Origin: a virus
Virus record (IMG/VR): IMGVR_UViG_3300003891_000022
Coordinates: 1-24,748 of that record
Direction: 5' to 3' (one strand)
Length of the DNA: 24,748 bases
This document shows, in pieces, positions 2-22,649 of this stretch (positions within the stretch are counted from its first letter, which is position 1; the number at the start of each line of letters is the position of its first letter). Below the pieces are notes generated by a model. It was given only the letters and a program-made list of their open reading frames with translations, made no database searches and had not been told where the DNA came from. A program made the position numbers and the translations under genes.

Positions 2-2260
2 GATTCGGTGCCGTTCTCGATTATGGAGGTAGCTTTACGGTTAGATGGATTGATTTACGCCAAATCGGTCCATGCAGCGGGTCTGGTTATCGGGGATCGA
101 CCTCTTTATGAGCTTTGTTCCGTGGAGCGGATGAAAGAGGCCGATAAAAGTTTGGCAGATCGGGTAGTGGCTTATGATAAGGATGATTTAACCGAGGTGG
201 GGTTGATCAAATACGATATTTTAGGGGTTCGTTTTCTTTCCGTTTTGGCCAAAACTTGTCAGTTGTTAGGGAAATCGTATAATTTTCTATACTCTATACC
301 GATTGATGATCCTGAAGTATATCGTATGATCTCCGAAGGGGAGGTAGATTGTTGTTTCCAGCTTGGTACGAGCCGGATGCGTAGCCTTTGCTTGGACATC
401 CAACCGGATAGTTTTGAGGATTTGGTAGCTTTGAATGCTTTGATTCGGCCAGGAGTATCAAGGAGTGGGGTGGTAGAGCGTTATGCTGCTCGGAAGCACG
501 GTCGAGAGAAGGCAGTTCCTCCGGTGGATTTAAAAATCTTGCATGATATTCTCAAAGAGAGTTTTGGCTTGGTTATTTTTCAGGAGCATATTATCAGGAT
601 TTTGAGGGAAGTGGCAGGTTTGGAGTGGTCGGTTGTTAATAAATTACGTAAGGCAATGGCGAAATTGCAGCGGGATGATTCCTTTCAAGAGGCGGAGCAA
701 CAGTTTATTGATGGAGCGACGAAAACACAAGGGATTTCGGTAGAAGAGGCGCGTCGGATTTATGAGACTATCAGTTATGCTGGCTCGTATGCTTTCAATA
801 AAAGTCATAGCACTTGTTACTCTCTTATCTCCTATTGGACGGCTTGGTTGAAATATCATTATCCCTTAGAGTACATGTTGGCTTATATGATCGTCAATTC
901 GGAGCAACCTGCCAAACTTCAAGAGGCGATTATTGAGGCGAAACGTTTGAATATTTCGGTCGTTGCTCCGATGGCGAACTATTCCGAGATTGGTTTCTCC
1001 ATAAAAGATGGTCAGATTTATTGTGGTTTATCGTCAATTAAAGGGATTAGCTCCGATACTGCAGCGGTAGTATTGGTTTTGCGTGACCCCTCCCGTATTT
1101 CCGAGTTTCCGAAATTGATGGATTCCTATCGTGCTGGAAGTCACAAAGTGGGTCCCTTTAAAGGATTATCCGATTTTGTGGATCGTTTAAATCGTAGCGG
1201 TTTGAGACGATTTTGTAATATCAGTCATATCCGAGCTTTAGTGATGGCTCATGCTTTTTCGGATTGTGAGTCTTATGAAGAGTCTTGGGTTGCGATGAAA
1301 CAGTCGGAGGATCGCAAGTCCGTTCGGAAAGGAACTGACGATTCGTTTACTCAGCTGACTTTGATTGAGGTTCCATTGACGGTTTCGGATTATGGGGAGG
1401 ATTATATAGAGCCGATTCGAGCCTTTAATGCTTTGGTTCCGTATCGGGTCGGTCCTGATATTATGACTGTCTATGAGAATTTTTTGAGATCGAATTATGA
1501 TGGAGTTTTTCAGGTGGAGGATAAGGGGGTAATTTATAAATGTGGAGATGGGTATTGGAAGAAAAATATCGTTTTCGGTCGGGTAATCGGTTATGAAGCT
1601 AGCCGTCGTAACGAAGAGGAGGTTTTTCAGCCGGATACTTTGTTCTTGGATGACCGCATTGGTCGGGTAAGAGCTTTTACGTTTAAACGCAGTTATATCG
1701 AGGGGTGGCGTTTAGATTGGATCAATGCGGTGTTAGATGTTAAGAATTGGGAGGAGGATGGTGCTTGTGCCGTCATTTATAGTTCGGAACGGGGACATGA
1801 AGAGATGTTGGGGATTGTCCCATTACTACATTGGCGGGATGCCGTTGAGAACGAAGCGGAGTTGTCGGAATGGGAGAAGGCATTGAGTGTGCATCCGTTG
1901 CGAATGGTAGATCCTCAGTTGTTGCGTGATCCGCAGCGGTATACAGGTTGGTTATGTCGAGTTGAGGAGCGTTCAAAAACGGGTAGTTCCGGTTATGGTG
2001 TGATTTATTTACATGGTTTGCAGGGTTTAGTTCAAATCGCTATTTTTTCGGATGTTTGGCAAAAAGTTCGCAGCAAATTTTTTGATCGCTGTTATAAATC
2101 AGTCGTTTCTTTGCCGGTTAGTTCGGGCCGGTTTGGATATACGTTCCGTGGCTCGGTAAACCAGATCCGGTTTATGGGGTTCAAGTTTGATCCGAGCCTA
2201 AAAGTGGAATATCAGCCTAAGATCGTCAATTGCATTGATCCGATGATTGGAGTATTTTAA
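2..2260 (+). CDS. dnaE: DNA polymerase III alpha subunit (DnaE type), 5'-partial
   Basis: Replicative C-family DNA polymerase, visible from the middle of the palm to the C terminus; the N-terminal PHP domain and first two catalytic aspartates lie upstream of the window. About 753 codons are seen. Early on, SVHAAGLVI followed by KYDILGVR matches the palm; the Asp of KYDILG corresponds to the third catalytic Asp (E. coli D555). The fingers follow with FQLGTSRMR, NALIRPG, QEHIIRI and NKSHSTCYSLISYWTAWLK. A helix-hairpin-helix-like part (GLSSIKGIS, LIRALVMAH-type context) comes next, then HPL and an OB-fold-like stretch (YGVIYLHGLQGLVQIAIF) near the end. A GTG at 8 is in frame, but homology to DnaE continues through it and the frame is open to the window edge, so I treat the gene as truncated by the window rather than starting there. 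A phage-encoded replicase fits the neighbouring recA and resolvase. Confidence 0.93.
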   Translation, partial: DSVPFSIMEVALRLDGLIYAKSVHAAGLVIGDRPLYELCSVERMKEADKSLADRVVAYDKDDLTEVGLIKYDILGVRFLSVLAKTCQLLGKSYNFLYSIPIDDPEVYRMISEGEVDCCFQLGTSRMRSLCLDIQPDSFEDLVALNALIRPGVSRSGVVERYAARKHGREKAVPPVDLKILHDILKESFGLVIFQEHIIRILREVAGLEWSVVNKLRKAMAKLQRDDSFQEAEQQFIDGATKTQGISVEEARRIYETISYAGSYAFNKSHSTCYSLISYWTAWLKYHYPLEYMLAYMIVNSEQPAKLQEAIIEAKRLNISVVAPMANYSEIGFSIKDGQIYCGLSSIKGISSDTAAVVLVLRDPSRISEFPKLMDSYRAGSHKVGPFKGLSDFVDRLNRSGLRRFCNISHIRALVMAHAFSDCESYEESWVAMKQSEDRKSVRKGTDDSFTQLTLIEVPLTVSDYGEDYIEPIRAFNALVPYRVGPDIMTVYENFLRSNYDGVFQVEDKGVIYKCGDGYWKKNIVFGRVIGYEASRRNEEEVFQPDTLFLDDRIGRVRAFTFKRSYIEGWRLDWINAVLDVKNWEEDGACAVIYSSERGHEEMLGIVPLLHWRDAVENEAELSEWEKALSVHPLRMVDPQLLRDPQRYTGWLCRVEERSKTGSSGYGVIYLHGLQGLVQIAIFSDVWQKVRSKFFDRCYKSVVSLPVSSGRFGYTFRGSVNQIRFMGFKFDPSLKVEYQPKIVNCIDPMIGVF

Positions 2261-2281
2261 TGAAGTAAGATAAGTAGGATT

Positions 2282-2518
2282 ATGGCGACCGGAATCAATA
2301 CGTTTTCTGGGAAGACCGTGCCATACATTATGCTCGGCTTTCTCGGTATTATGAACTTTAGAGTTGTTTCTGACCTTAGAAATGCTTCAAAGCCTCCCAA
2401 ACGGTCTGGAAGCGTGGCAAATTTTGTCTTCAATTGGGGTCTAGCCGAGTGGAAACGCCAATGTGAAGATGGCGGCAAGTTACAAGTTATTCGTTTATTA
2501 GTATGGTTGAGATGTTGA
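2282..2518 (+). CDS. doubtful small hypothetical protein (78 aa)
   Basis: This frame starts at an ATG three bases after AGTAGG-like sequence and would encode 78 residues with a hydrophobic patch (YIMLGFLGIM) near the N terminus and a basic middle. I recognise no family. Its leucine codons include CTC, CTT and CTA, whereas the neighbouring genes use TTA and TTG almost exclusively, so it is either a recent arrival, a decayed gene, or not coding. The stop overlaps the small tandem repeat at 2507-2527. Kept only because it fills an otherwise empty 312-base gap. Confidence 0.22.
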   Translation: MATGINTFSGKTVPYIMLGFLGIMNFRVVSDLRNASKPPKRSGSVANFVFNWGLAEWKRQCEDGGKLQVIRLLVWLRC

Positions 2519-2527
2519 GATGTTGAG
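2507..2527. repeat. short tandem repeat, 8-base unit TTGAGATG
   Basis: The unit TTGAGATG occurs twice in a row followed by a partial third copy (TTGAG). It lies at the 3' end of the doubtful frame in the 2261-2572 gap. Too short to imply a function. Confidence 0.6.
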
Positions 2528-2572
2528 GTTTGACGGTGGAACCAAATCGGTCACTTAGAAAGGGAATAAACG

Positions 2573-3091
2573 ATGTTGCAGACAGTACAGCGGATCATAC
2601 CGCAAAAAACCGAATGGGAAGGGAAGGAATTTTACTATTCTGACATTGGTAGTGAATTCCACGGTAAGAAGTCGTTTCGGCTTTGGATTTCGCCTAAACT
2701 TATATATGAGGATTTCGTCCCTTTCCCTTGTCTGGGACAAATTTTGAAAGTGGAATCGGGTTTCGTGTTGAATCCCGGTGACAAAACAGTTTATAATATC
2801 ATCGTTCATTGTGGCTTCCGGGGAACAGCCTCCTTGGAAGTGTTGACTCCGGGTGCGGAAGTCTTTATTTATCATAATTATCGTTCCCCTCTTGGGAGTT
2901 TAGGGGTTGATGAGGGGGCAATTGTCGTGGTCCATTTGGGTGAACCCTTGAAAGTAAAATGGCATCGTTCGGGACGCCTTTATGGGGAACCTGCCGAAGG
3001 TATATCGGTCATCTATCCCGATGGCACGGTCAAAGAATACGAGGTTCCTAATGAAGAGGAGTTGAATACGTTAAAGACTTTGATAGTTTAG
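2573..3091 (+). CDS. hypothetical protein, beta-rich (172 aa)
   Basis: No family recognised. The start ATG follows GAAAGGGAATAAACG, a good Shine-Dalgarno sequence at normal distance. The protein is soluble-looking, without a signal peptide or membrane segment, and has many short hydrophobic/aromatic strands separated by Gly/Pro/Asp turns (for example NPGDKTVYNIIVH, GAIVVVHLGEPLKVKW), suggesting a mostly beta fold. The C terminus is acidic. It lies just downstream of the polymerase gene and is followed by a promoter-like sequence, so it is probably the last gene of its transcription unit. A virion or nucleotide-related role cannot be decided from the sequence. Confidence 0.7.
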   Translation: MLQTVQRIIPQKTEWEGKEFYYSDIGSEFHGKKSFRLWISPKLIYEDFVPFPCLGQILKVESGFVLNPGDKTVYNIIVHCGFRGTASLEVLTPGAEVFIYHNYRSPLGSLGVDEGAIVVVHLGEPLKVKWHRSGRLYGEPAEGISVIYPDGTVKEYEVPNEEELNTLKTLIV

Positions 3092-3095
3092 GTAG

Positions 3096-3111
3096 ATTCG
3101 GTAAACCGGAT
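3096..3111 (+). other. small hairpin ATTCGG-TAAA-CCGGAT
   Basis: A six-pair stem (one G-T pair) with a four-base loop begins five bases after the stop codon of the 2573-3091 gene. No run of T follows, so it is not a clear intrinsic terminator; it may be a weak stop or stabilise an RNA end. Confidence 0.35.
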
Positions 3112-3123
3112 AATCGTATCATA

Positions 3124-3152
3124 TTGACATATTCGCATAAATTTGTTAAGTT
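3124..3152 (+). promoter_or_regulatory. candidate sigma-A/70-type promoter
   Basis: A perfect -35 hexamer TTGACA (3124-3129) is followed after 17 bases by TAAGTT (3147-3152), a weak -10 matching three of six consensus positions. Transcription would start near 3159, upstream of the GGAAGGAG at 3179-3186 and downstream of the TTG at 3143. If real, it excludes that TTG as the start of the next gene. Confidence 0.42.
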
Positions 3153-3202
3153 TTGTAGGTTATGTAAATCGGATAATAGGAAGGAGTTCGTTAGTTTTCA
3201 AG

Positions 3203-3838
3203 ATGGGTAATTTCCTGGAAACCTACTATCGGGATCGTCGAATTGAGGTTAACTCTTTGGTTTTGAATAATCTTAAGGAGGTATTGGCAACTTTGGTGCC
3301 TTCTCCTAGAGGGAATGCTGTGCTGCTTTTAGGGTTTGAAGGCCGAATTATGGAGTTATTAACGGATTGGATTAATTCGTGTTACTCCACCTCTCGCCTC
3401 TTCGTTTGGGCTGGTCCATTCCATTCGGTGTATGATGATTGGATTCGGGGTTACCGCCGTTCCGATCCGGCTAGGATTGTGCGAGTGCGGGAGATGTATG
3501 GGATTTTAGACAATATTGTGAATCGGGTTCGGAACGAAGGTTATTATCGGATTAACTTGGCGGTCTCGCTTTTTACCGATGTGGCTTTCAATGAACGAGT
3601 TTGTGAGACGATATTTCGTAGTATTATGCGAGATAGTGGAACTTTGTTGCTTCCGCTTGGTCCGAAAGAGCTGAGATATTGGCAACATTATACGAGATCA
3701 GATCGGGTTTTAGATTTAGAGGCAGGATTGGATTTGAGGTCAATATGGCCTTTGCAGACCAGTATTGAGTATCAGGCTCAGCAGATTGCTCAATATGGTG
3801 AAAGCGGAAATGTGGAAGTTGTTGAAGGATTAAACTGA
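3203..3838 (+). CDS. hypothetical protein, alpha/beta pattern (211 aa)
   Basis: No family recognised with certainty. Hydrophobic strands AVLLLGF, RLFVWAG, INLAVSLF and GTLLLPLG alternate with amphipathic helices, as in Rossmann-like proteins such as methyltransferases, but the glycine-rich cofactor loop is not clear, so I do not assign that function. Start choice: an in-frame TTG exists at 3143, but a promoter-like TTGACA-N17-TAAGTT overlaps it and the ribosome binding site GGAAGGAG (3179-3186) lies downstream of it, so ATG 3203 is preferred although its 16-base spacing is long. It opens a run of unknown genes between the polymerase and recA, with a 13-base gap to the next gene. Confidence 0.68.
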   Translation: MGNFLETYYRDRRIEVNSLVLNNLKEVLATLVPSPRGNAVLLLGFEGRIMELLTDWINSCYSTSRLFVWAGPFHSVYDDWIRGYRRSDPARIVRVREMYGILDNIVNRVRNEGYYRINLAVSLFTDVAFNERVCETIFRSIMRDSGTLLLPLGPKELRYWQHYTRSDRVLDLEAGLDLRSIWPLQTSIEYQAQQIAQYGESGNVEVVEGLN

Positions 3839-3851
3839 AAGGATTTTTACC

Positions 3852-4163
3852 ATGTCAGATCAATGTTCAGAAGAAATTCGGTCTAATTCCACTCAATCGG
3901 GTATTGTTTCAACTGATAAATTAGATCAGATTTGTACGGATATGTTAAACCAATTTTATGAGATTGGCCGCACTTACGGTCGAATGGGCCTTTTCGAGGC
4001 TGCGGCTTTGGTAATGCTTTTCACATTTGAAGTGATGGTTGTATCGAGTGGATTTGATCCGGGCCTGCTCGATGCTACGATAGATGGTTTGAAGATGCAT
4101 TATCAGACTATTGTGGATGAGTTTTCCGGCAATATCGTGGCGGAACCGAGCAATTCGGAGTAA
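3852..4163 (+). CDS. hypothetical small helical protein (103 aa)
   Basis: Unrecognised. The ATG follows GAAAGGATTTTTACC, a normal ribosome binding site. The first 20 residues are polar and probably disordered; residues about 25-90 are helical with the hydrophobic face FEAAALVMLFTFEVMVV, which could be a buried helix or a marginal membrane segment, though flanking residues do not look like a typical anchor. The C terminus is polar. Position between two other unknown genes in the same transcription unit is the only context available. Confidence 0.65.
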   Translation: MSDQCSEEIRSNSTQSGIVSTDKLDQICTDMLNQFYEIGRTYGRMGLFEAAALVMLFTFEVMVVSSGFDPGLLDATIDGLKMHYQTIVDEFSGNIVAEPSNSE

Positions 4164-4179
4164 CGGTGCGCTAATCTGT

Positions 4180-4189
4180 AGGAAGGGGG
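4180..4189 (+). promoter_or_regulatory. strong ribosome binding site deciding a TTG start
   Basis: AGGAAGGGGG ends nine bases before the TTG at 4199. The same TAGGAAGG core with nearby TTCG precedes the genes at 3203 and 5999. Confidence 0.7.
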
Positions 4190-4198
4190 AATTCGGTT

Positions 4199-4855
4199 TT
4201 GAGTAATCCTGACGATGAGGTTTGGCAGCTTTATGAGCCTGCCGTGCCTAAATCTGACGAAGTTCTGTTGGATTGGTCGAATGTAATGAGTGCTGCCAGG
4301 AAAGATGAGTATCGTTATGAGAGAGTCTTTTTTCGTTCACGTCTTGATGAGTCGAAAAGATTAGGTGTACATCATGCTTATACTTGTGATTCCGATTTGG
4401 ATTTAATTACCAGTAGTCCTTTTGGGTTTATTATAGCACGTTTAGAATTTAAGATGATGCATGAGCCGTTGCGGTTTAGTCAAGTTATCTCATTCAATCA
4501 TTTGATCTCGATCCCGGCTCCGTGGACTATTCCAGTGTTTATTGTGCGATGTATTGCACCGCCGGAGTTTTATGAGGAGAACAAGGCGGAACATCGGTTT
4601 CGGATCGAACAGTATAAGGGTTGTTCCGATTGGAGGAAAGATGAGTTTTCGTATGATAATGAGGTGATTTGTGAATCGGTTGATTGGAACGGTTATTTTG
4701 ACTGGGAGGTGAGTTTGCGGGAATGGCGTTGTCGTGAGTTCGAGGAGTATTGGGATAGCTATAAGCAGAGATTATATGATCGTTATCGCCATTGGGAGAA
4801 AAATTTAGGCTTCATGCAAGGTGATACTCATTTGAGAAATAGGAGTGAGATGTAA
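4199..4855 (+). CDS. candidate PD-(D/E)XK-fold nuclease (218 aa)
   Basis: The start is TTG, set by the AGGAAGGGGG nine bases upstream. Residues 61-120 show a layout typical of the PD-(D/E)XK nuclease superfamily: an acidic strand with D64, D66 and D68 (YTCDSDLDLI), then E83-F84-K85 (RLEFKM) as the ExK element, a Gln at 95 on the following helix, and a hydrophobic strand PVFIVRC. In that superfamily the D...ExK residues bind the metal and cleave DNA. The C-terminal third is aromatic and charged (repeated W, Y, R), without a recognised domain. The assignment rests on motif spacing only and is an inference; restriction-, recombination- or resolvase-type roles are equally open. The stop overlaps the next start as TAATG. 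Confidence 0.72.
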   Translation: MSNPDDEVWQLYEPAVPKSDEVLLDWSNVMSAARKDEYRYERVFFRSRLDESKRLGVHHAYTCDSDLDLITSSPFGFIIARLEFKMMHEPLRFSQVISFNHLISIPAPWTIPVFIVRCIAPPEFYEENKAEHRFRIEQYKGCSDWRKDEFSYDNEVICESVDWNGYFDWEVSLREWRCREFEEYWDSYKQRLYDRYRHWEKNLGFMQGDTHLRNRSEM

Positions 4856-5304
4856 TGGAGACACGAGTTGTTAATGCTTCTTATCCGTTTAAATTGGATT
4901 TGAGTCCGTATGCCGTCTTGGAATATGCGAGACGGAAAGGGTTCCAATTGTATGTTTATGAAATCCCCAAACGCTATTCGGCACTGCTATTGGCTTCGGT
5001 ACGAGTATATGGGATTTATCGGGAGGTTACAGAGGCCGAGATTGACGAGATTTTTCAGAGAGGGGATGCGGTTTTTTTAACTTATTGGTTGGAGCCTTTG
5101 AAACCGATTAGACGGAAGAAACATTTTTTTATCGCGACGGATTTATCGAAACGGTTTTGGCCGCACAAAATTGATCCTAGTGATCCCGTATTGATTGAAG
5201 TAGTACGGGATTTAGGGGGGAAGGCTAATGCTTTATGGGCCGACCTAAAGATTGTAGAAGGTTCCATTAATGCATTGAGAGAATGGGTTGCCATGGAACG
5301 TTAG
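4855..5304 (+). CDS. hypothetical phage protein, paralogue A (149 aa)
   Basis: Translationally coupled to the upstream gene (TAATG overlap, AGGAG at 4841-4845). The N terminus (RVVNASYPFKL, LEYARRKGFQLYVYE) and C-terminal part (DPVLIEVVRDLGGKANALWADLKIVEG) are clearly related to the gene at 5475-5969, so this is a diverged duplicate. The D-P-x-L-x-EVV-x-x-LG pattern is one I associate with short phage proteins of unknown function. Unlike the other copy it lacks the C-terminal extension ending in HRVW. No catalytic signature is visible. The pair flanks a 45-residue basic protein. Confidence 0.78.
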   Translation: METRVVNASYPFKLDLSPYAVLEYARRKGFQLYVYEIPKRYSALLLASVRVYGIYREVTEAEIDEIFQRGDAVFLTYWLEPLKPIRRKKHFFIATDLSKRFWPHKIDPSDPVLIEVVRDLGGKANALWADLKIVEGSINALREWVAMER

Positions 5305-5324
5305 AACGAAAGGGGGAGAGGATT

Positions 5325-5462
5325 ATGCCGTTTCGATCAGAGAGGCAACGAAGATGGATGTGGATCCATCATCCCGATATTGCCAGACGGTGGTCTCATC
5401 GTTATGGCAGCAAACCACGTCCTTTGAAACATCGTCGGGTTCGCAGGATGCGACGGAAATGA
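5325..5462 (+). CDS. small basic conserved phage protein (45 aa)
   Basis: A short gene starting at ATG 5325 with a strong AGGGGGAGAGG just upstream. It reads MPFRSERQRRWMWIHHPDIA and continues with RRWSHRYG and an Arg/Lys-rich tail, about 40 percent basic. The pattern MPF-x-S-x-x-QRR-x-M/W...HP-x-IA-x-RW is one I know from many phage and metagenomic small proteins of unknown role; the charge suggests nucleic-acid binding. A different overlapping frame (5288-5473) is longer but has no ribosome binding site and poor composition, so this one is preferred. It sits between two paralogous genes. Confidence 0.72.
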   Translation: MPFRSERQRRWMWIHHPDIARRWSHRYGSKPRPLKHRRVRRMRRK

Positions 5463-5998: not shown

Positions 5999-6976
5999 AT
6001 GGATGAAGATATTCGGAAGATGGTTTTGGAGCTGCAAGGGAGTGGACATCGGATTGATATTGGTGGGATTCAGTTTGCTCCGAAACGGATATTGCATTCT
6101 GGTTCCTGTTTGTTGGATTGGATGTTAGGGGTTGGAGGGTTGCCATCGGGTCGGCTATTGGAGTTCGCGGGAAGTGAAGGAGGTGGTAAGACTACGATCT
6201 CCATGGTTTGTGCCGCAGCAGTGCAAGCGCAAGGATATGAGGTGGTTTGGGTAGATGCGGAACATTCCTATGACGAGATTATGGCTAGAAATGTGGGATT
6301 GAAGGATACCATTGTATTCCAACCCAAGTTTGGGGAGGAAGCCTTAGATATTGTCCGTAAATTTGTAGGTTTGGAGCAAGTAGGTTTAATTGTAATAGAT
6401 TCCATTGCTGCTTTGGTGCCTCAAGATGAGCTGAAAGTGGTGCAAGTGACGGATGCTATTGCTTTACAAGCGCGAATGATCTCTTTGAAATTACGCCAAA
6501 TTTTTGTGGAGATGACACCAACCTCTCCCACGATTATTACGATCAATCAGTTACGAGATCGGGTAGGAGGTTGGGGGGCGTCTCATACCACGCCAGGTGG
6601 TCGTTCTCATAAACACTGGGCACATATCCGAATCCAAGTAGCACGAGGAAACTCAATTGAGGATACCGATAAGAATCGTGTGGGGAATTGGGTGGATTTG
6701 AGTTATCTCAAATCGAAGATGACTTCACCTGATAAGAAGGTTTCGGTTCCTTTGGTTTGGGGTTACGGGATTGATCGGCGTTTAGATATTATTGAATCCG
6801 CGGCTTTGTTAGGGGTGGTTCGGAAGGAACGAGGTCGAGTTTATTTTGAGGATGGGGAGACCGGAAAGTTCGTTAAGGATATATCAGATGAGCAATTAAC
6901 CGATTTATTTTTGAAAGTGAATCTTATTTTGGACACGTATCGAACTAAAATTTCAGGTGCCGGTGAAGCTATTTAG
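5999..6976 (+). CDS. recA: RecA-type recombinase (phage, 325 aa)
   Basis: ATP-dependent DNA strand-exchange protein. The start ATG follows AGGAAGGGATTAATTCGG. Walker A is G-S-E-G-G-G-K-T-T (residues 58-66; cellular RecA usually has GPESSGKTT), the catalytic Glu is E88 in VDAEHSYD, Walker B is LIVIDSIAAL (130-139), and N183-Q184 begin the DNA-binding loop L2 that ends in the TTPGG element near 197-201. LKSKMTSP matches the Lys-rich ATP-cap region. The length is close to but shorter than cellular RecA, and the acidic C-terminal tail is absent. The Walker A substitution and tail loss are typical signs of a diverged viral copy. Immediately followed by a RuvC-like resolvase, giving a recombination pair in one operon. 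Confidence 0.95.
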   Translation: MDEDIRKMVLELQGSGHRIDIGGIQFAPKRILHSGSCLLDWMLGVGGLPSGRLLEFAGSEGGGKTTISMVCAAAVQAQGYEVVWVDAEHSYDEIMARNVGLKDTIVFQPKFGEEALDIVRKFVGLEQVGLIVIDSIAALVPQDELKVVQVTDAIALQARMISLKLRQIFVEMTPTSPTIITINQLRDRVGGWGASHTTPGGRSHKHWAHIRIQVARGNSIEDTDKNRVGNWVDLSYLKSKMTSPDKKVSVPLVWGYGIDRRLDIIESAALLGVVRKERGRVYFEDGETGKFVKDISDEQLTDLFLKVNLILDTYRTKISGAGEAI

Positions 6977-11844: not shown

Positions 11845-12903
11845 ATGGGTGATTTTTATCAATTGGTTGCTACCAGGAATTCGGAATGTTATTCGATGCT
11901 ATCGGAGTTAGTGAAACGTACTGATATTCAAGTTTTCGATTTGGCCGATGATTTCCCGATTATCGGTCGAGAGGATGCCGGTATATTCCATTTTTTCGGG
12001 TTAGGTTGTGACGTTAATGGCTATGATTTTCCGTATTTGCGTACAGTATTGCATGAAGCAAGATTGGCCGGTTATCACGTAATTTGGTCTCCCTGGACGG
12101 CCATTCCCCTATTTGGTAATGAGAAAGTGAATGAGATGGTACATAGTTCCATCTCGGAATGCCAATATATCAGTTTATTTTCGGGATATGAGTTGGGTCG
12201 TTTTAGTGGGGTATACGGGATTCCGTATGAGGCTTCTATCGCTATTTGGCCGTTTATGATGTGGTCGGATCCGAATGAGATTATGCCGAAAGAGTATACC
12301 ATATCTATTCTGAATACTTGGGATTATACGGAATCGTTGGATCTATGGTTTGATCGTTATGGGTTCCTGTACCGGATAAATTTTCCGCCAAATACAAAAA
12401 TACATGTAGTGCATTTGGAAGGAGCTTATGTGCCAGATTATGGTGGAATTTTGTCGGATGATGAGTATTTAAGCTATGTGGGTTTGGTGAAAGAGGGGAT
12501 TGCTAATGCTCTGCAAGATTCTCCGGTGGAGATAGATGTGGTATCGGTCCAGACCTATGATGAGGCTTTAAGGGAACTTAATCGCGCCAAAGGATTTTTG
12601 GATTTATCTCGCGAAATTGTTAATCCGTATCGTTATGTTTCGTTATATTACCGTGGTACAGAAATTATTTCATCTTCTATTGGTTGCTTGTGGGAGCATT
12701 TGGGGGATGGAGCATTTTATATTTCTCCATATAATATCGTGGATATTGAAGCGGCAATTGAGGTGTTAGAGGAACACTATTCTCCGCTGGATAATTATAG
12801 TGAGATCTATAGCTCGGTGATAGAGTATAATGATACGGTCGCAACTTCATGGCAGGAGATGTATCGTGCCATCGCGCGAGTAGGAGAGCCATCTCATGGA
12901 TGA
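11845..12903 (+). CDS. putative GT-B-fold glycosyltransferase (352 aa)
   Basis: Probable transfer of a sugar from a nucleotide-sugar donor. The N-terminal half alternates strands and helices (GIFHFFGLG, GYHVIWSPW). The C-terminal half carries the pattern of GT4-like enzymes: ALRELNRAKGFLDLSREIVN, then NPYRYVSLYYRGTEIISSSI, then GDGAFYISPYNIVDIEAAI, corresponding to the donor-site segment in which a locus or host name is replaced by a choice of family and a default loop. No signal peptide or membrane segment is seen. It starts one base after the terminase stop and overlaps the portal start by eight bases, so it is expressed with packaging genes. Assignment is from fold-level pattern, moderately secure; the acceptor (virion protein, DNA base or host surface) is unknown. 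Confidence 0.78.
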   Translation: MGDFYQLVATRNSECYSMLSELVKRTDIQVFDLADDFPIIGREDAGIFHFFGLGCDVNGYDFPYLRTVLHEARLAGYHVIWSPWTAIPLFGNEKVNEMVHSSISECQYISLFSGYELGRFSGVYGIPYEASIAIWPFMMWSDPNEIMPKEYTISILNTWDYTESLDLWFDRYGFLYRINFPPNTKIHVVHLEGAYVPDYGGILSDDEYLSYVGLVKEGIANALQDSPVEIDVVSVQTYDEALRELNRAKGFLDLSREIVNPYRYVSLYYRGTEIISSSIGCLWEHLGDGAFYISPYNIVDIEAAIEVLEEHYSPLDNYSEIYSSVIEYNDTVATSWQEMYRAIARVGEPSHG

Positions 12904-14782
12904 GAATGTTCAATCGAGCGAAATCATAGTGACTCGTTCTAAATATGTAAGTGTGGAGAAAGATCGCACTATTGCTAATTTTGCGAGAAGCAGTTTGAAA
13001 ACGAGTCAATTGGGTGCTTCTGAGAAGCAGAAGGAAATCGAACGCAAAGTTAAAGATAAACTTTTACAGCAAGGTGATGATACGAATCCACTCAATGATA
13101 CGATTGAGCCGCCTTTTAATTTAGATGGATTGGCACAATTGACGATTAAAAATACTTGGAATCATGCTTGTATTAAAGCGAAAGTGAGCAATCTGATCGG
13201 ATCCGGTTGGCGTTTAACTCCTTCCAAAGAGCATGTGGATCGAATGAAAGATCTGGAAAACCGTATTAAGGAGTTAGAGGCGCAACTGGAAGCCGATCCA
13301 ACGGAAGATCCGGCGATTTTATCGGAACTGTTGGAACTCCGATCTGAGAAGGAGGAATATGATTCGATTACCGAGAAAATTAGGAAGTTATTCCATAAGC
13401 CGAATAATCGTATGACGATTGTCGAGATTTCGGAGAATGCTTTTATTGATCGAGAAGGGATTGGACAAGGTTTTTGGGAGATTTCGGTCAATGCGTTAAC
13501 GGCTGAACCGGATCATATCTATCATTTACGGGCGGCAAGTATGCTGCGATTGGCGAAATTGAGTGGCTGGGTTCAAATCTTGGCGGATGGAAGCCGCATA
13601 TTTTATAAGGAATGGGGAGATTGGAATATTTATGACAAGTACACCGGGAAACAGTATGGATATTTCGTTACCGATGATGACGGGGTTCCGGTAAGAAATA
13701 ATGGATTAGCTCAGATCGTATGGCTGGAAGAGGAGCTTCCGATTGAGAAGTGGGCGAATGCAGTTATTGTTTTTTATAAGTATAATCCGATGAATCAGTA
13801 TTATGGACTTCCTGACGGGATCCCTGCTTTACCTGCGATGGCAGGTAAGGAAGCTGCGGATGAATTCAATTATGCCGAGTTCGATAATTACGGAATGGCT
13901 CGTTGGGCGGTGATTATTCGGGGTTCACAATTGTCTAAAGAGGCGAGACGGGAGATTGAGACATTCTTTGAAGAGGATATGAATGAAAATGCGCATGGAG
14001 TTCTGTTAGTGACGATCCCTCCACCTCCTATCCCTCCGATTCCATCTGCGTCTTCACCTCCTGAGACTACGGTTGAGTTTCAGCCGTTAGATGTGCAACA
14101 GCATGAAGCTCATTTTCAGGAGTATCGCCATGATTTGAGGGATGAAGTTTTGGCGGCACACAATGTTCCGCCTCATTTGGTCTCCATTATTGAGACTGGG
14201 AATATTGGAGGGGGACAGGGTGTGGCTCAAATGCAGAATTTTGTTAAAAATGTAATTACTCCTATGAAAACTAAAGTGGAATATCAAATCAACAGTTTAA
14301 TTGAAGTAGGGTTTGGGATTGATTGGTTGAAATTCACCTTTAATACCAGTGATCTTACGGCCGAGTTGGATGTCGCCAAGATCTCGCAGATTTACTCCAA
14401 TGTTTATGCTATGACGATCAATGAGATGCGGGATCGTGCCGGTTTGGATCCGGTAAATGGTGGAGACCGGATATTCTTGGTAATTCCTGGTATTGGATTG
14501 ATCTTCGTAGATGATTTGGATAAAATGGGTTCGGTCTTCCTGGCAGGAGGGATAGGAGGGCTGGTTGCCGCTCCGTCGGATGAAGGAGAGGGTGACAACC
14601 CGCCACCTTCGCCCGATATTCCGGGGGATGCGGCGGGTGATTTGACGAGTTTGTACCCCAATGCGGTATGGCGGAATTTGGGGAAACAGTTAATGGATTT
14701 AGCGAACCGAGGATCCTATCTTCGGTCGGGAAAAACCTTGCGATTGGTTCGTGCCAAAGATTTGTTTGGCGATAAGGAGTAG
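12896..14782 (+). CDS. phage portal protein, PBSX/HK97-like (628 aa)
   Basis: Forms the dodecameric portal ring at one vertex through which DNA enters and leaves. Starts by overlapping the previous gene, with AGGAGAG as ribosome binding site. Residues about 85-110 contain WNHACIKAKVSNLIGSGWRL, the conserved stem-proximal segment. A coiled-coil-like insertion follows (about 115-165, Glu/Lys/Leu-rich). The core motif YYGLPDGIPALPAMAGKEAA and the following FNYAEFDNYG are typical of PBSX-type portals, as is the NVPPHLVSIIETGNIGG segment. A Pro-rich loop (PPPPIPPIPSASSPP) lies near residue 380, an unusual insert. The C terminus has Gly/Asp/Pro-rich low complexity. Position after terL is canonical. 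Confidence 0.9.
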   Translation: MDENVQSSEIIVTRSKYVSVEKDRTIANFARSSLKTSQLGASEKQKEIERKVKDKLLQQGDDTNPLNDTIEPPFNLDGLAQLTIKNTWNHACIKAKVSNLIGSGWRLTPSKEHVDRMKDLENRIKELEAQLEADPTEDPAILSELLELRSEKEEYDSITEKIRKLFHKPNNRMTIVEISENAFIDREGIGQGFWEISVNALTAEPDHIYHLRAASMLRLAKLSGWVQILADGSRIFYKEWGDWNIYDKYTGKQYGYFVTDDDGVPVRNNGLAQIVWLEEELPIEKWANAVIVFYKYNPMNQYYGLPDGIPALPAMAGKEAADEFNYAEFDNYGMARWAVIIRGSQLSKEARREIETFFEEDMNENAHGVLLVTIPPPPIPPIPSASSPPETTVEFQPLDVQQHEAHFQEYRHDLRDEVLAAHNVPPHLVSIIETGNIGGGQGVAQMQNFVKNVITPMKTKVEYQINSLIEVGFGIDWLKFTFNTSDLTAELDVAKISQIYSNVYAMTINEMRDRAGLDPVNGGDRIFLVIPGIGLIFVDDLDKMGSVFLAGGIGGLVAAPSDEGEGDNPPPSPDIPGDAAGDLTSLYPNAVWRNLGKQLMDLANRGSYLRSGKTLRLVRAKDLFGDKE

Positions 14783-16247: not shown

Positions 16248-17096
16248 ATGATGAGTTCTTTCCATTTGTATAAACATCCGATTGCGGGGTTGGTTCCTTT
16301 TAAGCCGAAGGAACCGATTCGGCCTGGCGGTCCGGTGATGTTGGATGCAGAGTGGGTACAGAAGAACTTTACTGAAGTTTTTATAGCTGAATTGGTAGGA
16401 GTACCGACTTATGGAGATACTAAATGTGATGGCAATATTACCTTTTATTCTCGTGCTGCTAAACAACTCCAAGCCGCTTTTGCCGAGATAGGAAGAAATT
16501 CCCTAGCCAATAGGATATTATTCTTTGGTGGTTCGGTGAATTTCCGTTTTATGCGTGGTAGCACTAGAACTTTGTCCAATCATTGTTTCGGTACAGCTGT
16601 TGATTTGAATCCTCAGTGGAATCCATACGGAAGTTCTCCGGCACCGTTGGGGGAGAAGGGATCGGTGGTGGAGTTGGTCCCGTATTTTAAGAAGTATGGT
16701 TTTCGTTGGGGGGGAGATTTCCAGTCTCATACGGATGGGATGCACTTCGAGGTGGAGCGGATAGTGGAGGTGAGTTCGGTCGAACCTTCTCGAAAGTCGG
16801 TAACCTTACTGAAGGATGGGGTCCATTTAGATATTCCGGCTTTTTTGGATGGGGGTACGACTTATGTCGCGGTACGGCCATTGTTGAACCATTTAGATGG
16901 TTTTTCGATCTTGTCGGTTTTTGATGATCAGTTCGTTATTGAGAAGGATAATGTAGTATATCGTATTCCGGGTATTATTGAAGATGGGGTGGGTTATATT
17001 TTGTTGCGTGATTTAATGCCTATTTTGAAAAATTATACTTTGACTTTTTCGTTGGTGCAAGGAAGACCGGTAGTAGAGTTGAAGCGGATAAAATGA
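16248..17096 (+). CDS. M15-type peptidase with C-terminal surface domain (282 aa)
   Basis: Likely peptidoglycan peptidase (D-Ala-D-Ala or L-Ala-D-Glu type). Residues 108-122 contain SNHCFGTAVDLNP, whose H112 and D119 match the first two zinc ligands of M15 enzymes; RWGGDF (153-158) and DGMHFE (163-168) supply the catalytic acidic residue region and third ligand H166. From about residue 175 the protein has LLKDGVHLDIPAFLDGGTTYVAV and a second similar repeat, resembling the copper-amine-oxidase N-terminal-like domain of Firmicutes surface proteins. There is no signal peptide, so export would need a holin or the enzyme acts from the virion. It is set in the head-gene block rather than a lysis cassette. 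It overlaps the next gene by four bases. Confidence 0.85.
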   Translation: MMSSFHLYKHPIAGLVPFKPKEPIRPGGPVMLDAEWVQKNFTEVFIAELVGVPTYGDTKCDGNITFYSRAAKQLQAAFAEIGRNSLANRILFFGGSVNFRFMRGSTRTLSNHCFGTAVDLNPQWNPYGSSPAPLGEKGSVVELVPYFKKYGFRWGGDFQSHTDGMHFEVERIVEVSSVEPSRKSVTLLKDGVHLDIPAFLDGGTTYVAVRPLLNHLDGFSILSVFDDQFVIEKDNVVYRIPGIIEDGVGYILLRDLMPILKNYTLTFSLVQGRPVVELKRIK

Positions 17097-17926: not shown

Positions 17927-17998
17927 CACTTATATGTATTTATTAAAATTTTCATATTTACGTTACTATATATAAACGGCCATGGAAGGGATAGGAGT
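17927..17998 (+). promoter_or_regulatory. AT-rich promoter-like gap before the capsid operon
   Basis: After the terminator the sequence is strongly AT-rich, unlike the coding regions, and carries TATATATAAA at 17967-17976, a possible -10 region. I do not find a good -35 hexamer at normal spacing, so this could be a promoter needing an activator or a phage-specific sigma factor. Confidence 0.4.
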
Positions 17999-18006
17999 TG
18001 GAGACG

Positions 18007-20175
18007 ATGCTACAGGAACGTTTCAATCTCGATGGTTCTTTTATTCGCACGATAGATACTGAAAAACGGATGGTATCGGGGATGGTGGCGACACCTGCCG
18101 TTACGGTAGATGGGAGGCGTATTGCAGCCGGTGCGTTGGATCATCCAACCGCTCTGACCGAATTTTTGCGGGTTCCATTGTTCCTTTGGAATCATAATCC
18201 CGATTATCCAATTGGTCGTATCAAACGATTAGAGAATCGCAGTGGAGCGGGGTTGTGGGCGTCCGGTATTGTGGACGACGAAATGATATGGAACTGGATT
18301 TTGCAAGGACGAATTCGGGGTTTTTCGATTGGATTTAAAGTTTTGGATTGGTCTTTGGAAACCGAAAGTGGAGAGCCGATAAGTGCGGAGGAAGCTCGGC
18401 TGGATAATTCCTCAGAATTTGTTTTCGTCTTTAACAAAATCCAGTTATTCGATATAAGTGTGGTTTCCTCTCCTGCGAATACCTATTGTTTATTTGTAGA
18501 ACCGCATGAGATGGAGGAACCAGAGTATTCAGGATTTCCTGAGCAATTACGGAAGTCTGCTGAAGGGTTCGACCTCACTAAATTCGAGCGGGTAGCTCGA
18601 TCCGAAGATTTGCCGCTTTACCTTCCTAAACGAGATCATTTCGATATGTATATGCCATTTGAACGAAATGGCAGTTTCTTAAAAGAAAAATTGGAAGCGG
18701 CAGGGGTTCCTTATGATCCCACCGATTGGTGGGTTTATGGATATGCGACTCGTTTCGATGAGGTGGATAGTTACGGGACTCGGATGACCCGTACGGCAAT
18801 TGAGAAAGCCTTGGATGATTATGCTCAGTGGAAGAATGTAAGGGAACAGCATGATCATCATAAAGCCGTTGGAGTTGCACCACTTTTGCAGTTAGATAAA
18901 AGTGGTTTGTTTATTGCCGCTCGAATTTCCAAAGGAGCACCGGATACTTGGCAGAAAGTTTTGGATGGAACTTTGAAAGGCTTCTCTTTGGGAGGGGTAA
19001 TTAAACCCAACGGAATTATTGAAGTTCGGGAGAACGGTAGAACGATTAAAAATATCGTTGATGTCGAGTTGTCGGAAATATCTCTAGTCGATAGGCCAGC
19101 GGTACGTAGTTGTGGTTTTACTCTGGCTTGTCGCGATATTAAGGAGGATAGTGTTATGCCAGAAACGGATGAGGTTTTGGTTTCTACGGAGTCCGTTGAC
19201 GATGAGGAGAACGAAGTCCAAACTCCCAAAATGTCTCTAAGTGAGATTCAGGAGTTGATCCGAGCCTTATCGGACGATAGTGATAATTATCAAACGACTT
19301 CATTGGATCACTTCACTCGTGGTGCGAATGGAGATCCTGATTTGCCGTTGGATATGGATCGTTCTTGGGATTCTCGTGCAGCTGAAAAGAGGGTTCGAGC
19401 CTGGGCGGATGCCGAGGATGGTCCAAATGCGAAATATCGGAGAGCATTTTTCTGGTATGATGAAAGTGCACCGGAGAATTTTACCTCTTATAAACTTCCG
19501 TTCGCCGATGTCGTCGATGGTCGTTTGACCGCAATTTGGAGGGGTGTCGTAGCGGCAATGATCGCTTTAAAAGGCGGTCGAGGGGGAGTGGATATTCCCG
19601 ATGAAGATCGCCGAGCGGTCTATAATCGGATTGCAGCATATTATCGTAAAGCGGATAAAGAGCCACCGGAATTTGAAGCGGAATATGAAGGCGAAATGGA
19701 TTTGGAGGGGGTTCTGGACGAAAGTGATCTGCCGGAACAAGTGAAGGTAGAACCCGCCAATTCGGAAGCCTTGGAGATTACCGAACGTTTAATGGCGATG
19801 TCCCAGAAATTGGATGATGTTATTGCCGCTTGTGATCGGTTGAGCTCTGATATTGCTAAAATGAATGAGCATTTGGAGAAAGTGATTATGGCACGTCAGG
19901 AAGAATCCGAAGAAACTTCCCAGTCCTCGGAAGAAAAGACGGAAGTTCCCGAATCGGGAGAATCTTCGGAGTTCAATCGTGCCGCCGGAACTGAACTCCA
20001 TAAGAAGATTGAAGAGCAAAATGCTTTGATCCGCGATCTGAAGAAAGCGTTGGAACGTTTCGGGGAGGGCCGGAAAGCGACAGATCGAGAGGATGGTTCC
20101 GCTTCCCGAAAAAGTATATGGGATGGTGTAGTTCCTGATTTCCCTCGCTTTGCGAGAGGTCGGTCGGGACGATAA
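18007..20175 (+). CDS. double prohead-protease / scaffold fusion protein (722 aa)
   Basis: Head maturation protein. ATG 18007 is chosen for AGGAG nine bases upstream; TTG 17998 is too close to that site. Domain 1 (about 20-165) is an HK97-type prohead protease: catalytic-type H63 in FLWNHNPDYPIGRI and S107 in GFSIGF, with LFDISVVSSPAN. Domain 2 (about 240-372) repeats the same logic: VYGYATRFDEVDSYG, REQHDHHKAVGV (H282 or neighbours), GTLKGFSLGG (S327), ELSEISLVDRPA. A third domain (445-555; LPLDMDRSW, SYKLPFADVVDG) is one seen in phage protease proteins. The tail (585-690) is coiled-coil and acidic, as in scaffold domains. Usual proteases have one catalytic domain of about 200 residues. It precedes the capsid gene. 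Confidence 0.9.
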   Translation: MLQERFNLDGSFIRTIDTEKRMVSGMVATPAVTVDGRRIAAGALDHPTALTEFLRVPLFLWNHNPDYPIGRIKRLENRSGAGLWASGIVDDEMIWNWILQGRIRGFSIGFKVLDWSLETESGEPISAEEARLDNSSEFVFVFNKIQLFDISVVSSPANTYCLFVEPHEMEEPEYSGFPEQLRKSAEGFDLTKFERVARSEDLPLYLPKRDHFDMYMPFERNGSFLKEKLEAAGVPYDPTDWWVYGYATRFDEVDSYGTRMTRTAIEKALDDYAQWKNVREQHDHHKAVGVAPLLQLDKSGLFIAARISKGAPDTWQKVLDGTLKGFSLGGVIKPNGIIEVRENGRTIKNIVDVELSEISLVDRPAVRSCGFTLACRDIKEDSVMPETDEVLVSTESVDDEENEVQTPKMSLSEIQELIRALSDDSDNYQTTSLDHFTRGANGDPDLPLDMDRSWDSRAAEKRVRAWADAEDGPNAKYRRAFFWYDESAPENFTSYKLPFADVVDGRLTAIWRGVVAAMIALKGGRGGVDIPDEDRRAVYNRIAAYYRKADKEPPEFEAEYEGEMDLEGVLDESDLPEQVKVEPANSEALEITERLMAMSQKLDDVIAACDRLSSDIAKMNEHLEKVIMARQEESEETSQSSEEKTEVPESGESSEFNRAAGTELHKKIEEQNALIRDLKKALERFGEGRKATDREDGSASRKSIWDGVVPDFPRFARGRSGR

Positions 20176-20230: not shown

Positions 20231-20245
20231 GAAAGGATAGTGAAT

Positions 20246-21214
20246 ATGACTCCAGAGCAATGGATGAAACGTGCAGTCGATGTCGGTCTGTTGACCGATG
20301 GTGGACGTTTAAATCGTGAACAGAGCGATGCGTTTATTGATCTTGTGGTCGATGAATCGGTTTTATCTAAAATTGTTCGGGTCGAACGAGTGAGTAATCC
20401 TCGTGGCGAACTGAACTTTATGGATATTACCGAACCGGTGACGGAAGCAGTCGGTGAAGATGCCGATACGGGGAACACTTATGAACCAATCCTGAGCAGT
20501 GTCGAGTATGATACTCGAAAACTGCGGTCGGCAATTGATTTCACCAGTGAAGCCTTTGAAGAAAATATTGAAGGCGATGCCTTCCGAGACCGAGTTATGG
20601 GCGCAATGAGCAAGCGGATCGCAACGGATATTGAACTTCTTTATATCCGTGGCAGTACTACGACTTATGCGGCTGATAATAGCCGTTTAGGTCGCTTGTT
20701 GCGTCGTTTGAATGGCTGGTATGTGCAAGGTTTGGCGGGACATGTGGTAGACCTTGATGGAGCTACAATCTCCAAAGAGGTCTTCAATGATTTGATCCAA
20801 GCCATGCCGTCACGTTATTTGCGGAATAAGTCCGATCTGAAGTTCTTTGTGGGTGTAAGCACGGAACAAGAGTATCGGAACGTTGTTGCGAATCGGGCAA
20901 CCGGTTATGGCGATGATAGCCTGCAGGGATCGAATCCGATGCGGGCTTTCGGAATTGATATTGTTCCGGTTCCGTTGTTCCCGGAGAATTTGGCTCGGAC
21001 TGCCGGAACGGAGAGCTTTAATGACGGCAGCTTTATTTGGCTGACGAACCCGCAAAACCTGATTGCGGTGATTTCCCGTGATATTACCATCCACTGGGAA
21101 TTTGTACCGCGTCGAGACCGTTGGCAATCCACCATTTATACTCGGGTGGATTGTTTGATCGAGAATACCGATGCCTTCGTAATGGGGATCAACCTCCAAG
21201 TGGAAGGAGCTTAG
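20246..21214 (+). CDS. major capsid protein, HK97-fold (322 aa)
   Basis: Main head shell protein. ATG 20246 lies eight bases after AAAGGA (GTG 20240 is too close to it). The sequence has the features of HK97-like capsid proteins: an N-terminal arm (LTDGGRLNREQSDAFIDLVV) leading to strands ELNFMDITEP, a peripheral-domain helix (SKRIATDIELLYIRG), FNDLIQAMPSRYLR, FFVGVSTEQEY (P-domain turn), and the A-domain loop FGIDIVPVPLFPE. There is no long N-terminal scaffold domain; the scaffold is probably supplied by the coiled-coil tail of the upstream protease gene. Codons here are a little richer in C-ending choices than in its neighbours, as is common for a highly expressed gene. Confidence 0.92.
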   Translation: MTPEQWMKRAVDVGLLTDGGRLNREQSDAFIDLVVDESVLSKIVRVERVSNPRGELNFMDITEPVTEAVGEDADTGNTYEPILSSVEYDTRKLRSAIDFTSEAFEENIEGDAFRDRVMGAMSKRIATDIELLYIRGSTTTYAADNSRLGRLLRRLNGWYVQGLAGHVVDLDGATISKEVFNDLIQAMPSRYLRNKSDLKFFVGVSTEQEYRNVVANRATGYGDDSLQGSNPMRAFGIDIVPVPLFPENLARTAGTESFNDGSFIWLTNPQNLIAVISRDITIHWEFVPRRDRWQSTIYTRVDCLIENTDAFVMGINLQVEGA

Positions 21215-21233: not shown

Positions 21234-22649
21234 ATGACGGCCAATGCTACGTTGAATGGTGAGCATGAGGTCGTGGTAGATCAACTTTATATTGCATTAT
21301 GTTATAAATGCGGTAATAAATTTTGTTATAGTGGAGATGAAATAATTGATGTTATTTGTCCACAATGTGGAACGCATAATTATGTTTATAGGAATACTAC
21401 CGTGTCAAATGTGAGGCGTTTGATCCTATATGGTGCTCGTGAATATAAATATCGGGGAGTCCGTTATAAAGCCTTTGTGCCGGTTCCGGTTTATGATGAT
21501 TTCGTAGCGCAACATTTATTGAATACCGGTCTTTTTATGGCGGATCCGCCGTTAGATGTAAAGTATGTTCGATATGTTGGTCCAGAACGGCATAGAGTTG
21601 TTAGGTTGGGAGTTGATAATAAAAGTACGGTTATTCTCAGAGCCGGAAAATTGATTCGGGGTGAGAGCAATTTTATCGAGGCTATTTCCAGAAAATTATC
21701 GAATGGTGGTTTGGTGCATTATTTGAGTAATAATGAAGTTATAGAGAGCATTAGCAAAAATAAAAGTTTTTCGGCCTTATTTGTGCGGGATATGGGATTG
21801 GGAGATGTCTTGATCTTTCGTTCTTGTTTAAAGGATTTTAAGAGACAATATCCCAATTCGGTTATTACGGCTTTGACTTTGGCAAGATATATGTTCGTTT
21901 TGGAGGATGTTGCAGATCAGGTCGGTGATATTAAATCGGCGGATTGGAATGCTTTGAATTACGATGTCAGTGCTAATTTATGTCGCAAGAGTGAGATTGC
22001 TGAATTGAACTCTACGATGCATCGAGCCGATGTTTATGCGATGTTTATGGGATTTAAGTTGCAAGATTATGATATGAGTTGGAATTTATCGGATCCTGTT
22101 AAGGAGAGTGCCTATAATCTTTTAGCTGAATATAATATTGATCCTGATAATGATTTTGTGGTTACGTTTCAACCTTATGCTTCTACTGTGATAAGAAGTT
22201 TGAATTTGCCAGAAGTTATAGATCTGGCGATAAAATTAAGGGATCGGTTTAATGCTAAAATAATATTTACGCATCATACTCGTTGTAATGAGTTTAGTCG
22301 GAATGGATTTATAAATTTGAGTGGATTGACTAATGTGGAGGAATATTGTGGGCTGATTTATTGGAGTAAATTGGTGATTAGCGGAGATAGTGGAGCATAT
22401 CATGTGAAAGAGGCGGTAGGGAATGGAAAAGCCTGTGCGGTATTCTCCACCATTGATCCGCAGTATCGTACTAAGTATTATAAGAATGTATTATCGTTGT
22501 GGATGCAAGAGGAGACTGAAATGCCTTGTGGGGGTCCATGCTTCGATCAGGGCTGCCGAGCTCTGCATTGTTTGAAATATTGGACCGCGAATCGAATATT
22601 TGAACGTATTGAGCCATTGATTGGCGAGTTGAATCCCAAAGGAGGATAG
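21234..22649 (+). CDS. GT9-like glycosyltransferase fused to zinc ribbon (471 aa)
   Basis: Probable sugar transferase of the heptosyltransferase-like GT9 family. ATG 21234 follows AGGAGGGA. Residues 20-50 are a zinc ribbon (C23-x2-C26 ... C42-x2-C45). Residues 70-105 (YRGVRYKAF, FVAQHLLNTGLF) and 110-140 resemble short head-associated phage proteins. The C-terminal part has the GT9 signature: FVRDMGLGDVLIFRSCLKDF (183-202), QPYAST (313-318), ISGDSGAYHVKEAVG (382-396) and a late Cys cluster (C432, C436, C441, C446). GT9 enzymes normally lack the N-terminal extension. It sits directly after the capsid gene (19-base gap), so capsid glycosylation is the natural hypothesis; a host-surface sugar change is an alternative. 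Confidence 0.86.
   Translation: MTANATLNGEHEVVVDQLYIALCYKCGNKFCYSGDEIIDVICPQCGTHNYVYRNTTVSNVRRLILYGAREYKYRGVRYKAFVPVPVYDDFVAQHLLNTGLFMADPPLDVKYVRYVGPERHRVVRLGVDNKSTVILRAGKLIRGESNFIEAISRKLSNGGLVHYLSNNEVIESISKNKSFSALFVRDMGLGDVLIFRSCLKDFKRQYPNSVITALTLARYMFVLEDVADQVGDIKSADWNALNYDVSANLCRKSEIAELNSTMHRADVYAMFMGFKLQDYDMSWNLSDPVKESAYNLLAEYNIDPDNDFVVTFQPYASTVIRSLNLPEVIDLAIKLRDRFNAKIIFTHHTRCNEFSRNGFINLSGLTNVEEYCGLIYWSKLVISGDSGAYHVKEAVGNGKACAVFSTIDPQYRTKYYKNVLSLWMQEETEMPCGGPCFDQGCRALHCLKYWTANRIFERIEPLIGELNPKGG

Follow-up and report, generated by a model that had tools for sequence, protein, structure and literature searches.

Two S78 protease domains joined to a conserved third domain and a scaffold-like tail in one predicted head maturation protein of an uncultured tailed phage

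Prohead proteases must remain inactive while the shell is open and, once it has closed, cut scaffold and capsid proteins a single time; the assemblins act as dimers, and gp21 of phage T4 as an oligomer. In HK97 the scaffold is carried as the delta domain of the capsid protein, and in lambda the protease C and the scaffold Nu3 are encoded by overlapping genes (PMC8508860). A diverged homolog is found in phage SPN3US, where Ser and Asp of gp117 align with the catalytic residues but the catalytic His does not (PMC5694885). Here we describe a 722-aa reading frame that almost certainly encodes two Peptidase_S78 domains, a third domain and a scaffold tail in one protein. Head proteases are well known, but a tandem of this type is rare among them.

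The window analyzed is a stretch of 24,748 nt, positions 1 to 24,748 of the IMG/VR virus record IMGVR_UViG_3300003891_000022, and the gene with its parts, the portal gene and the capsid gene all lie on its plus strand. The gene, annotated from its open frame and codon bias as a tandem-S78 head maturation protease/scaffold protein, spans 18007-20175 and runs for 722 codons without a stop from an ATG at 18007, which is located 9 bases 3' of a Shine-Dalgarno-like AGGAG (17993-17997; duplex energy about -8). In-frame codon bias extends over both protease domains and their linker, through the third domain and into the tail, and GC content is similar throughout. The order of the surrounding head genes is complete and ordinary, with a portal protein (12896-14782; PF04860) upstream and a major capsid protein without a delta domain (20240-21214; PF05065 and alignment) downstream, the likely start of the latter being the ATG at 20246. 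A D-Ala-D-Ala carboxypeptidase (M15) gene lies within the head module, between portal and protease (16248-17096), and the capsid gene is followed immediately by a glycosyltransferase family 9-like gene (21234-22649). The left part of the contig carries a DNA polymerase III alpha fragment (2-2260) and a RecA-like gene (5999-6976), suggesting a larger phage genome.

The initial annotation had proposed two protease domains on the basis of two segments sharing a His-then-Ser layout (H63/S107 and H282/S327), and profile searches returned two matches accordingly. Domain 1 (residues 15-160; 18049-18486) and domain 2 (residues 237-376; 18715-19134) were both identified by Pfam, alignment, and AF2 modeling with Foldseek. 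Each half passed PF04586 independently, with 39.3 bits (E 9.7e-10) when residues 1-200 were scanned alone and 48.5 bits (E 1.4e-12) for residues ~190-390 scanned alone, the curated cut-off being 21 bits; PHROGs and NCBIfam made the same S78 call, and a genome-level search gave two separate S78 matches within the frame. The XkdF family PF14550 matched domain 2 only (E 1.1e-6; 30.5 bits against a cut-off of 24, whole protein) and was outscored there by PF04586. The separate domain scans together with the models ruled out that only one of the protease matches is real.

Alignment of ten S78 domains, including HK97 gp4, revealed 12 invariant columns, all of which are kept in both window domains. 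Among 280 distinct S78 rows, H63 (18193-18195) and H282 (18850-18852) occupy a position with His in 99%, S107 (18325-18327) and S327 (18985-18987) one with Ser in 100%, and D149 (18451-18453) and E357 (19075-19077) one with Glu in 97% and Asp in 3%, domain 1 thus carrying Asp where Glu is usual. By analogy with the His-Ser-Asp triad of T4 and SPN3US (PMC5694885), this acid would be the third catalytic member. The presumed triad, H63/S107/D149 and H282/S327/E357, is intact at both sites and in 270 of 272 complete S78 rows. A feature missed by the initial annotation is that domain 1 has T33 and R37 at two loop positions that are acidic in 98% and 95% of S78 domains, respectively, so that it does not keep the DxxG(D/E) loop motif, which is widespread among S78 proteases although not published as a requirement for belonging to them. 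Only two S78 rows lack both loop acids, namely domain 1 and the protease of locus L150, which also lacks the catalytic His; domain 1 may therefore be decaying or specialized. In L150 itself (2098-4419), S78, the third domain and a capsid protein share one frame and the protease His is replaced by Val, probably representing a dead protease retained within a capsid fusion.

The predicted structures point in the same direction. The AF2 model of domain 1, built from 70 sequences, has a domain pLDDT of about 95, and its top PDB matches in Foldseek were herpesvirus proteases and T4 gp21 with borderline scores (E 1e-3 to 4e-3, low TM), every match listed being of the herpesvirus protease/gp21 class. 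For domain 2 modeled with the third domain (48 sequences), pLDDT was about 97, and Foldseek matched HCMV protease (E 2.6e-6) and T4 gp21 (TM 0.59, rmsd 2.9), residues 240-372 adopting the protease fold in the model as had been anticipated. Hence, both domains are predicted to have the herpesvirus assemblin/T4 gp21 fold, clearly for domain 2 and with borderline matches for domain 1. The linker between them (residues 166-236; 18502-18714) was modeled with low confidence except for a predicted helix at residues ~218-231. Domain 2 is very probably an active protease. Domain 1 looks competent but unusual, and the balance tips only modestly towards activity, which is less certain owing to the loss of the two conserved loop acids.

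The search of viral contigs with the full protein alone returned no relative, and alignments were therefore used. Domain 2 shares 41-46% identity with proteases of other phage contigs, whereas domains 1 and 2 share only about 22%, and it groups with proteases of Streptomyces and Rhodococcus phages. The closest relatives of the window capsid protein are the Stanwilliamsviridae capsid proteins (about 33%), from the same phages as the relatives of domain 2. Since the nearest named relatives of domain 2 and of the capsid protein occur in the same actinobacterial phages, the cognate maturation protease is most likely domain 2, a partner probably inherited together with the capsid protein; this relationship had not been recognized in the initial annotation. 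In one IMG/VR contig (L094) the order is portal, then a protein with a domain-2-type S78, third domain and tail, then the same capsid family, which corresponds to the 722-aa protein minus domain 1, and wherever an S78 gene is seen in a locus with a related capsid protein, it encodes only one S78 domain. Domain 1 scores best against T5-type and protease-capsid-fusion S78 domains at about 30% identity, has at most 33% overall identity to any relative, and forms a long branch in the tree.

The third domain (residues 450-555; 19354-19671; AF2 pLDDT about 97), which has no Pfam family and which the initial annotation had also marked out, is real and conserved among relatives as a head-protease-associated domain. 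About 67 frames have it after S78 and four or five have it before S78, and in the Thermus phage Riverbug it follows a Mu-I-type protease. In locus L119 (1960-3690) it follows an S49/ClpP-type protease and is thus not bound to one protease class. That the domain accompanies head proteases of any catalytic class suggests a scaffold or capsid-binding job. The domain is of interest beyond this protein, since it has no name and occurs with S78, S49-like and Mu-I-like proteases, all of which it probably serves in the same scaffold or capsid function. Two further fusions were observed: a 1071-aa protein (L145:1981-5193) in which S78 and the third domain are combined with an AAA ATPase domain, an unexpected association of ATPase and head protease, and a 1073-aa protease (L365:1670-4888) whose protease part and tail are separated by a ferritin/Dps domain, similar proteins being present in BFVD.

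The charged tail (residues 556-722; 19672-20172) had been described as a scaffold-like coiled coil; its scaffold-like character was supported and the tail is probably a scaffold, but the coiled coil, although probable, is indicated by weak family matches only. The C-terminal motif KSIWDGVV (20110-20133) matches the KSxWxGxF of relatives, the C-termini of which read KSKWNGSFLG, KGIWSGSFLG or SFWGGVF. A strict W-G/S/D-G-x-F/V/A form was present in 22 of the 55 tails from loci with related capsid proteins, compared to 0.15 expected after shuffling, and many of the rest have a looser W-x-G form. The W-x-G motif is a probable capsid docking point.

A strong internal start was likewise overlooked at first. 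The Shine-Dalgarno sequence AAGGAGG (19141-19147) lies 8 nt 5' of the in-frame codon M384 (ATG at 19156), which is eight residues past domain 2 and thus at the boundary between proteases and scaffold. With a predicted pairing of -12.1, the site is stronger than those of the 20 other gene starts that were scored in the window, the best of which reaches -10.7. Shuffling of codons gave p 0.05 for a comparable site anywhere in the gene and p 0.002 for one at the domain boundary, and a comparable site arose in 6.6% of synonymous shuffles. The start is not conserved in the relatives examined, L094 included, and similar in-frame Shine-Dalgarno/ATG pairs arise by composition in the charged tails of relatives. 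We consider it slightly favored, as a prediction for this gene only, that the start at 19156 yields a separate scaffold of 339 residues (third domain plus tail; 19156-20175).

The arrangement of two S78 domains appears to be rare. S78 was present in about 350 reading frames of the 376 fetched loci, a redundant and biased sample, with two clear copies in the window frame only; a set of 796 genomes from two phyla yielded 155 S78 matches, none of them in tandem in one frame. Across 50,697 phage records no place reached 80% coverage of the query, and among the best matches listed there were single domains but no S78-S78 protein. No papers on tandem prohead proteases were found in the collection of papers searched, and a single example leaves no measure of selection on domain 1. 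A lone metagenomic contig with neither a second example nor a close relative could reflect an assembly or sequencing artefact that joined two adjacent S78 genes, or two phages, and separate neighboring S78 genes in one module do occur (L377, see below). Such a joining is nevertheless very improbable, as the 722 codons are open, codon bias and GC run uniformly through both domains and the linker, and the head gene order around the gene is undisturbed.

The sequence relationships also bear on how domain 1 arose. A recent tandem duplication was ruled out by identity, the two domains being about 22% identical while domain 2 reaches up to 46% with other phages. An older duplication inside the gene, followed by fast divergence of domain 1 instead of capture of a separate S78 lineage, would agree with the detectable similarity between the domains (E 2e-4) and with the fact that a single clade of both was not rejected (p-AU 0.42). 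However, the best tree separates the two, and domain 1 scores best with T5-type or protease-capsid-fusion S78 domains whereas domain 2 does so with actinophage-type ones; hence we regard this origin as unlikely. A further proposal concerns function, namely that domain 1 is a dead or weak pseudoprotease serving structure or regulation, either by assemblin-like pairing with domain 2 or as a propeptide blocking domain 2 until assembly is complete. The long branch of domain 1 and its lack of two loop acids that nearly all active-looking S78 domains retain agree with this proposal, and precedents exist in gp117 of SPN3US, which has diverged from its paralogue, the prohead protease gp245 (PMC5694885), and in T4 gp21, the active site of which is blocked by its N-terminus until the protein cleaves itself (PMC9958956). 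In contrast to gp117, domain 1 keeps the His, the Ser and an acid seen in other S78 domains (Asp in 3%), and it retains G70, G109, S151, P156 and N158 despite its low identity (at most 33%) to any relative, making a pseudoprotease doubtful in our view.

The best explanation overall, which we hold with moderate confidence, is thus a head maturation protease-scaffold of an uncultured tailed phage with the build S78, S78, third domain and tail, as supported by the frame, the two S78 folds, the catalytic residues, the third domain and the gene order. According to this explanation, domain 2 would be the cognate protease of ancestral origin and would trim the capsid and scaffold proteins within the finished procapsid, and the third domain and tail would form an internal scaffold, replacing the delta domain absent from the capsid protein and docking to it by the C-terminal W-x-G motif. 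Domain 1 would be a divergent S78 domain of a different type gained at the N-terminus, most likely still cutting, and either contributing an additional active site or specificity, or pairing with domain 2 as a built-in half-dimer. The internal start at 19156 may supply the scaffold alone in excess, so that few double-protease copies are placed among many scaffold copies in the manner of lambda C/Nu3; the double protease would co-assemble with the scaffold through the third domain and tail beneath the capsid protein, and after closure domain 2 would cut capsid and scaffold while domain 1 acts as an extra site or as a partner of domain 2. We only tentatively extend this to two active prohead proteases of distinct S78 sublineages with different substrates or timing, in which the scaffold half made alone from the internal start would allow protease and scaffold doses to be set separately. 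A natural covalent pair with two intact, sequence-distinct sites would allow one to ask if activation depends on pairing and if mutation of one serine at a time can separate two cutting steps.

Compared to described systems, both window domains share the His-Ser-acid layout and motifs of HK97 gp4 and the S78 family (PF04586), but HK97 gp4 has one domain and neither the third domain nor a scaffold tail. The capsid maturation proteases of Tomas, Wakanda, NiceHouse and Dorin (Stanwilliamsviridae and Rhodococcus phages) resemble domain 2 in sequence, have an acidic tail, and lie in the same portal-protease-capsid order next to a related capsid protein; however, each has one S78 domain, and no third domain was present in those examined. 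The 565-aa protease of L094 comes with the same adjoining capsid family and has a domain-2-type S78, the third domain, a charged tail and a KGIWSGSF terminus, but lacks domain 1 and a strong internal start. Lambda C, which is not an S78 protease, and Nu3 likewise combine protease and scaffold in one gene with an in-frame internal start, whereas the start in the window is predicted only. Two prohead-protease homologs of family S80, gp245 and gp117, occur together in SPN3US, but in separate genes (PMC5694885). Similarly, L377 (Actinomycetota genome G544) has two S78 proteases in one head module like the window, but as separate genes (2587-3039 and 4711-5361) flanking the capsid gene. Finally, an 880-aa protein of an IMG/VR contig (L098:2977-5616) also joins two head-protease domains and the third domain in one polypeptide, but its second protease belongs to another family (phrog_976) and the order is S78, third domain and second protease.
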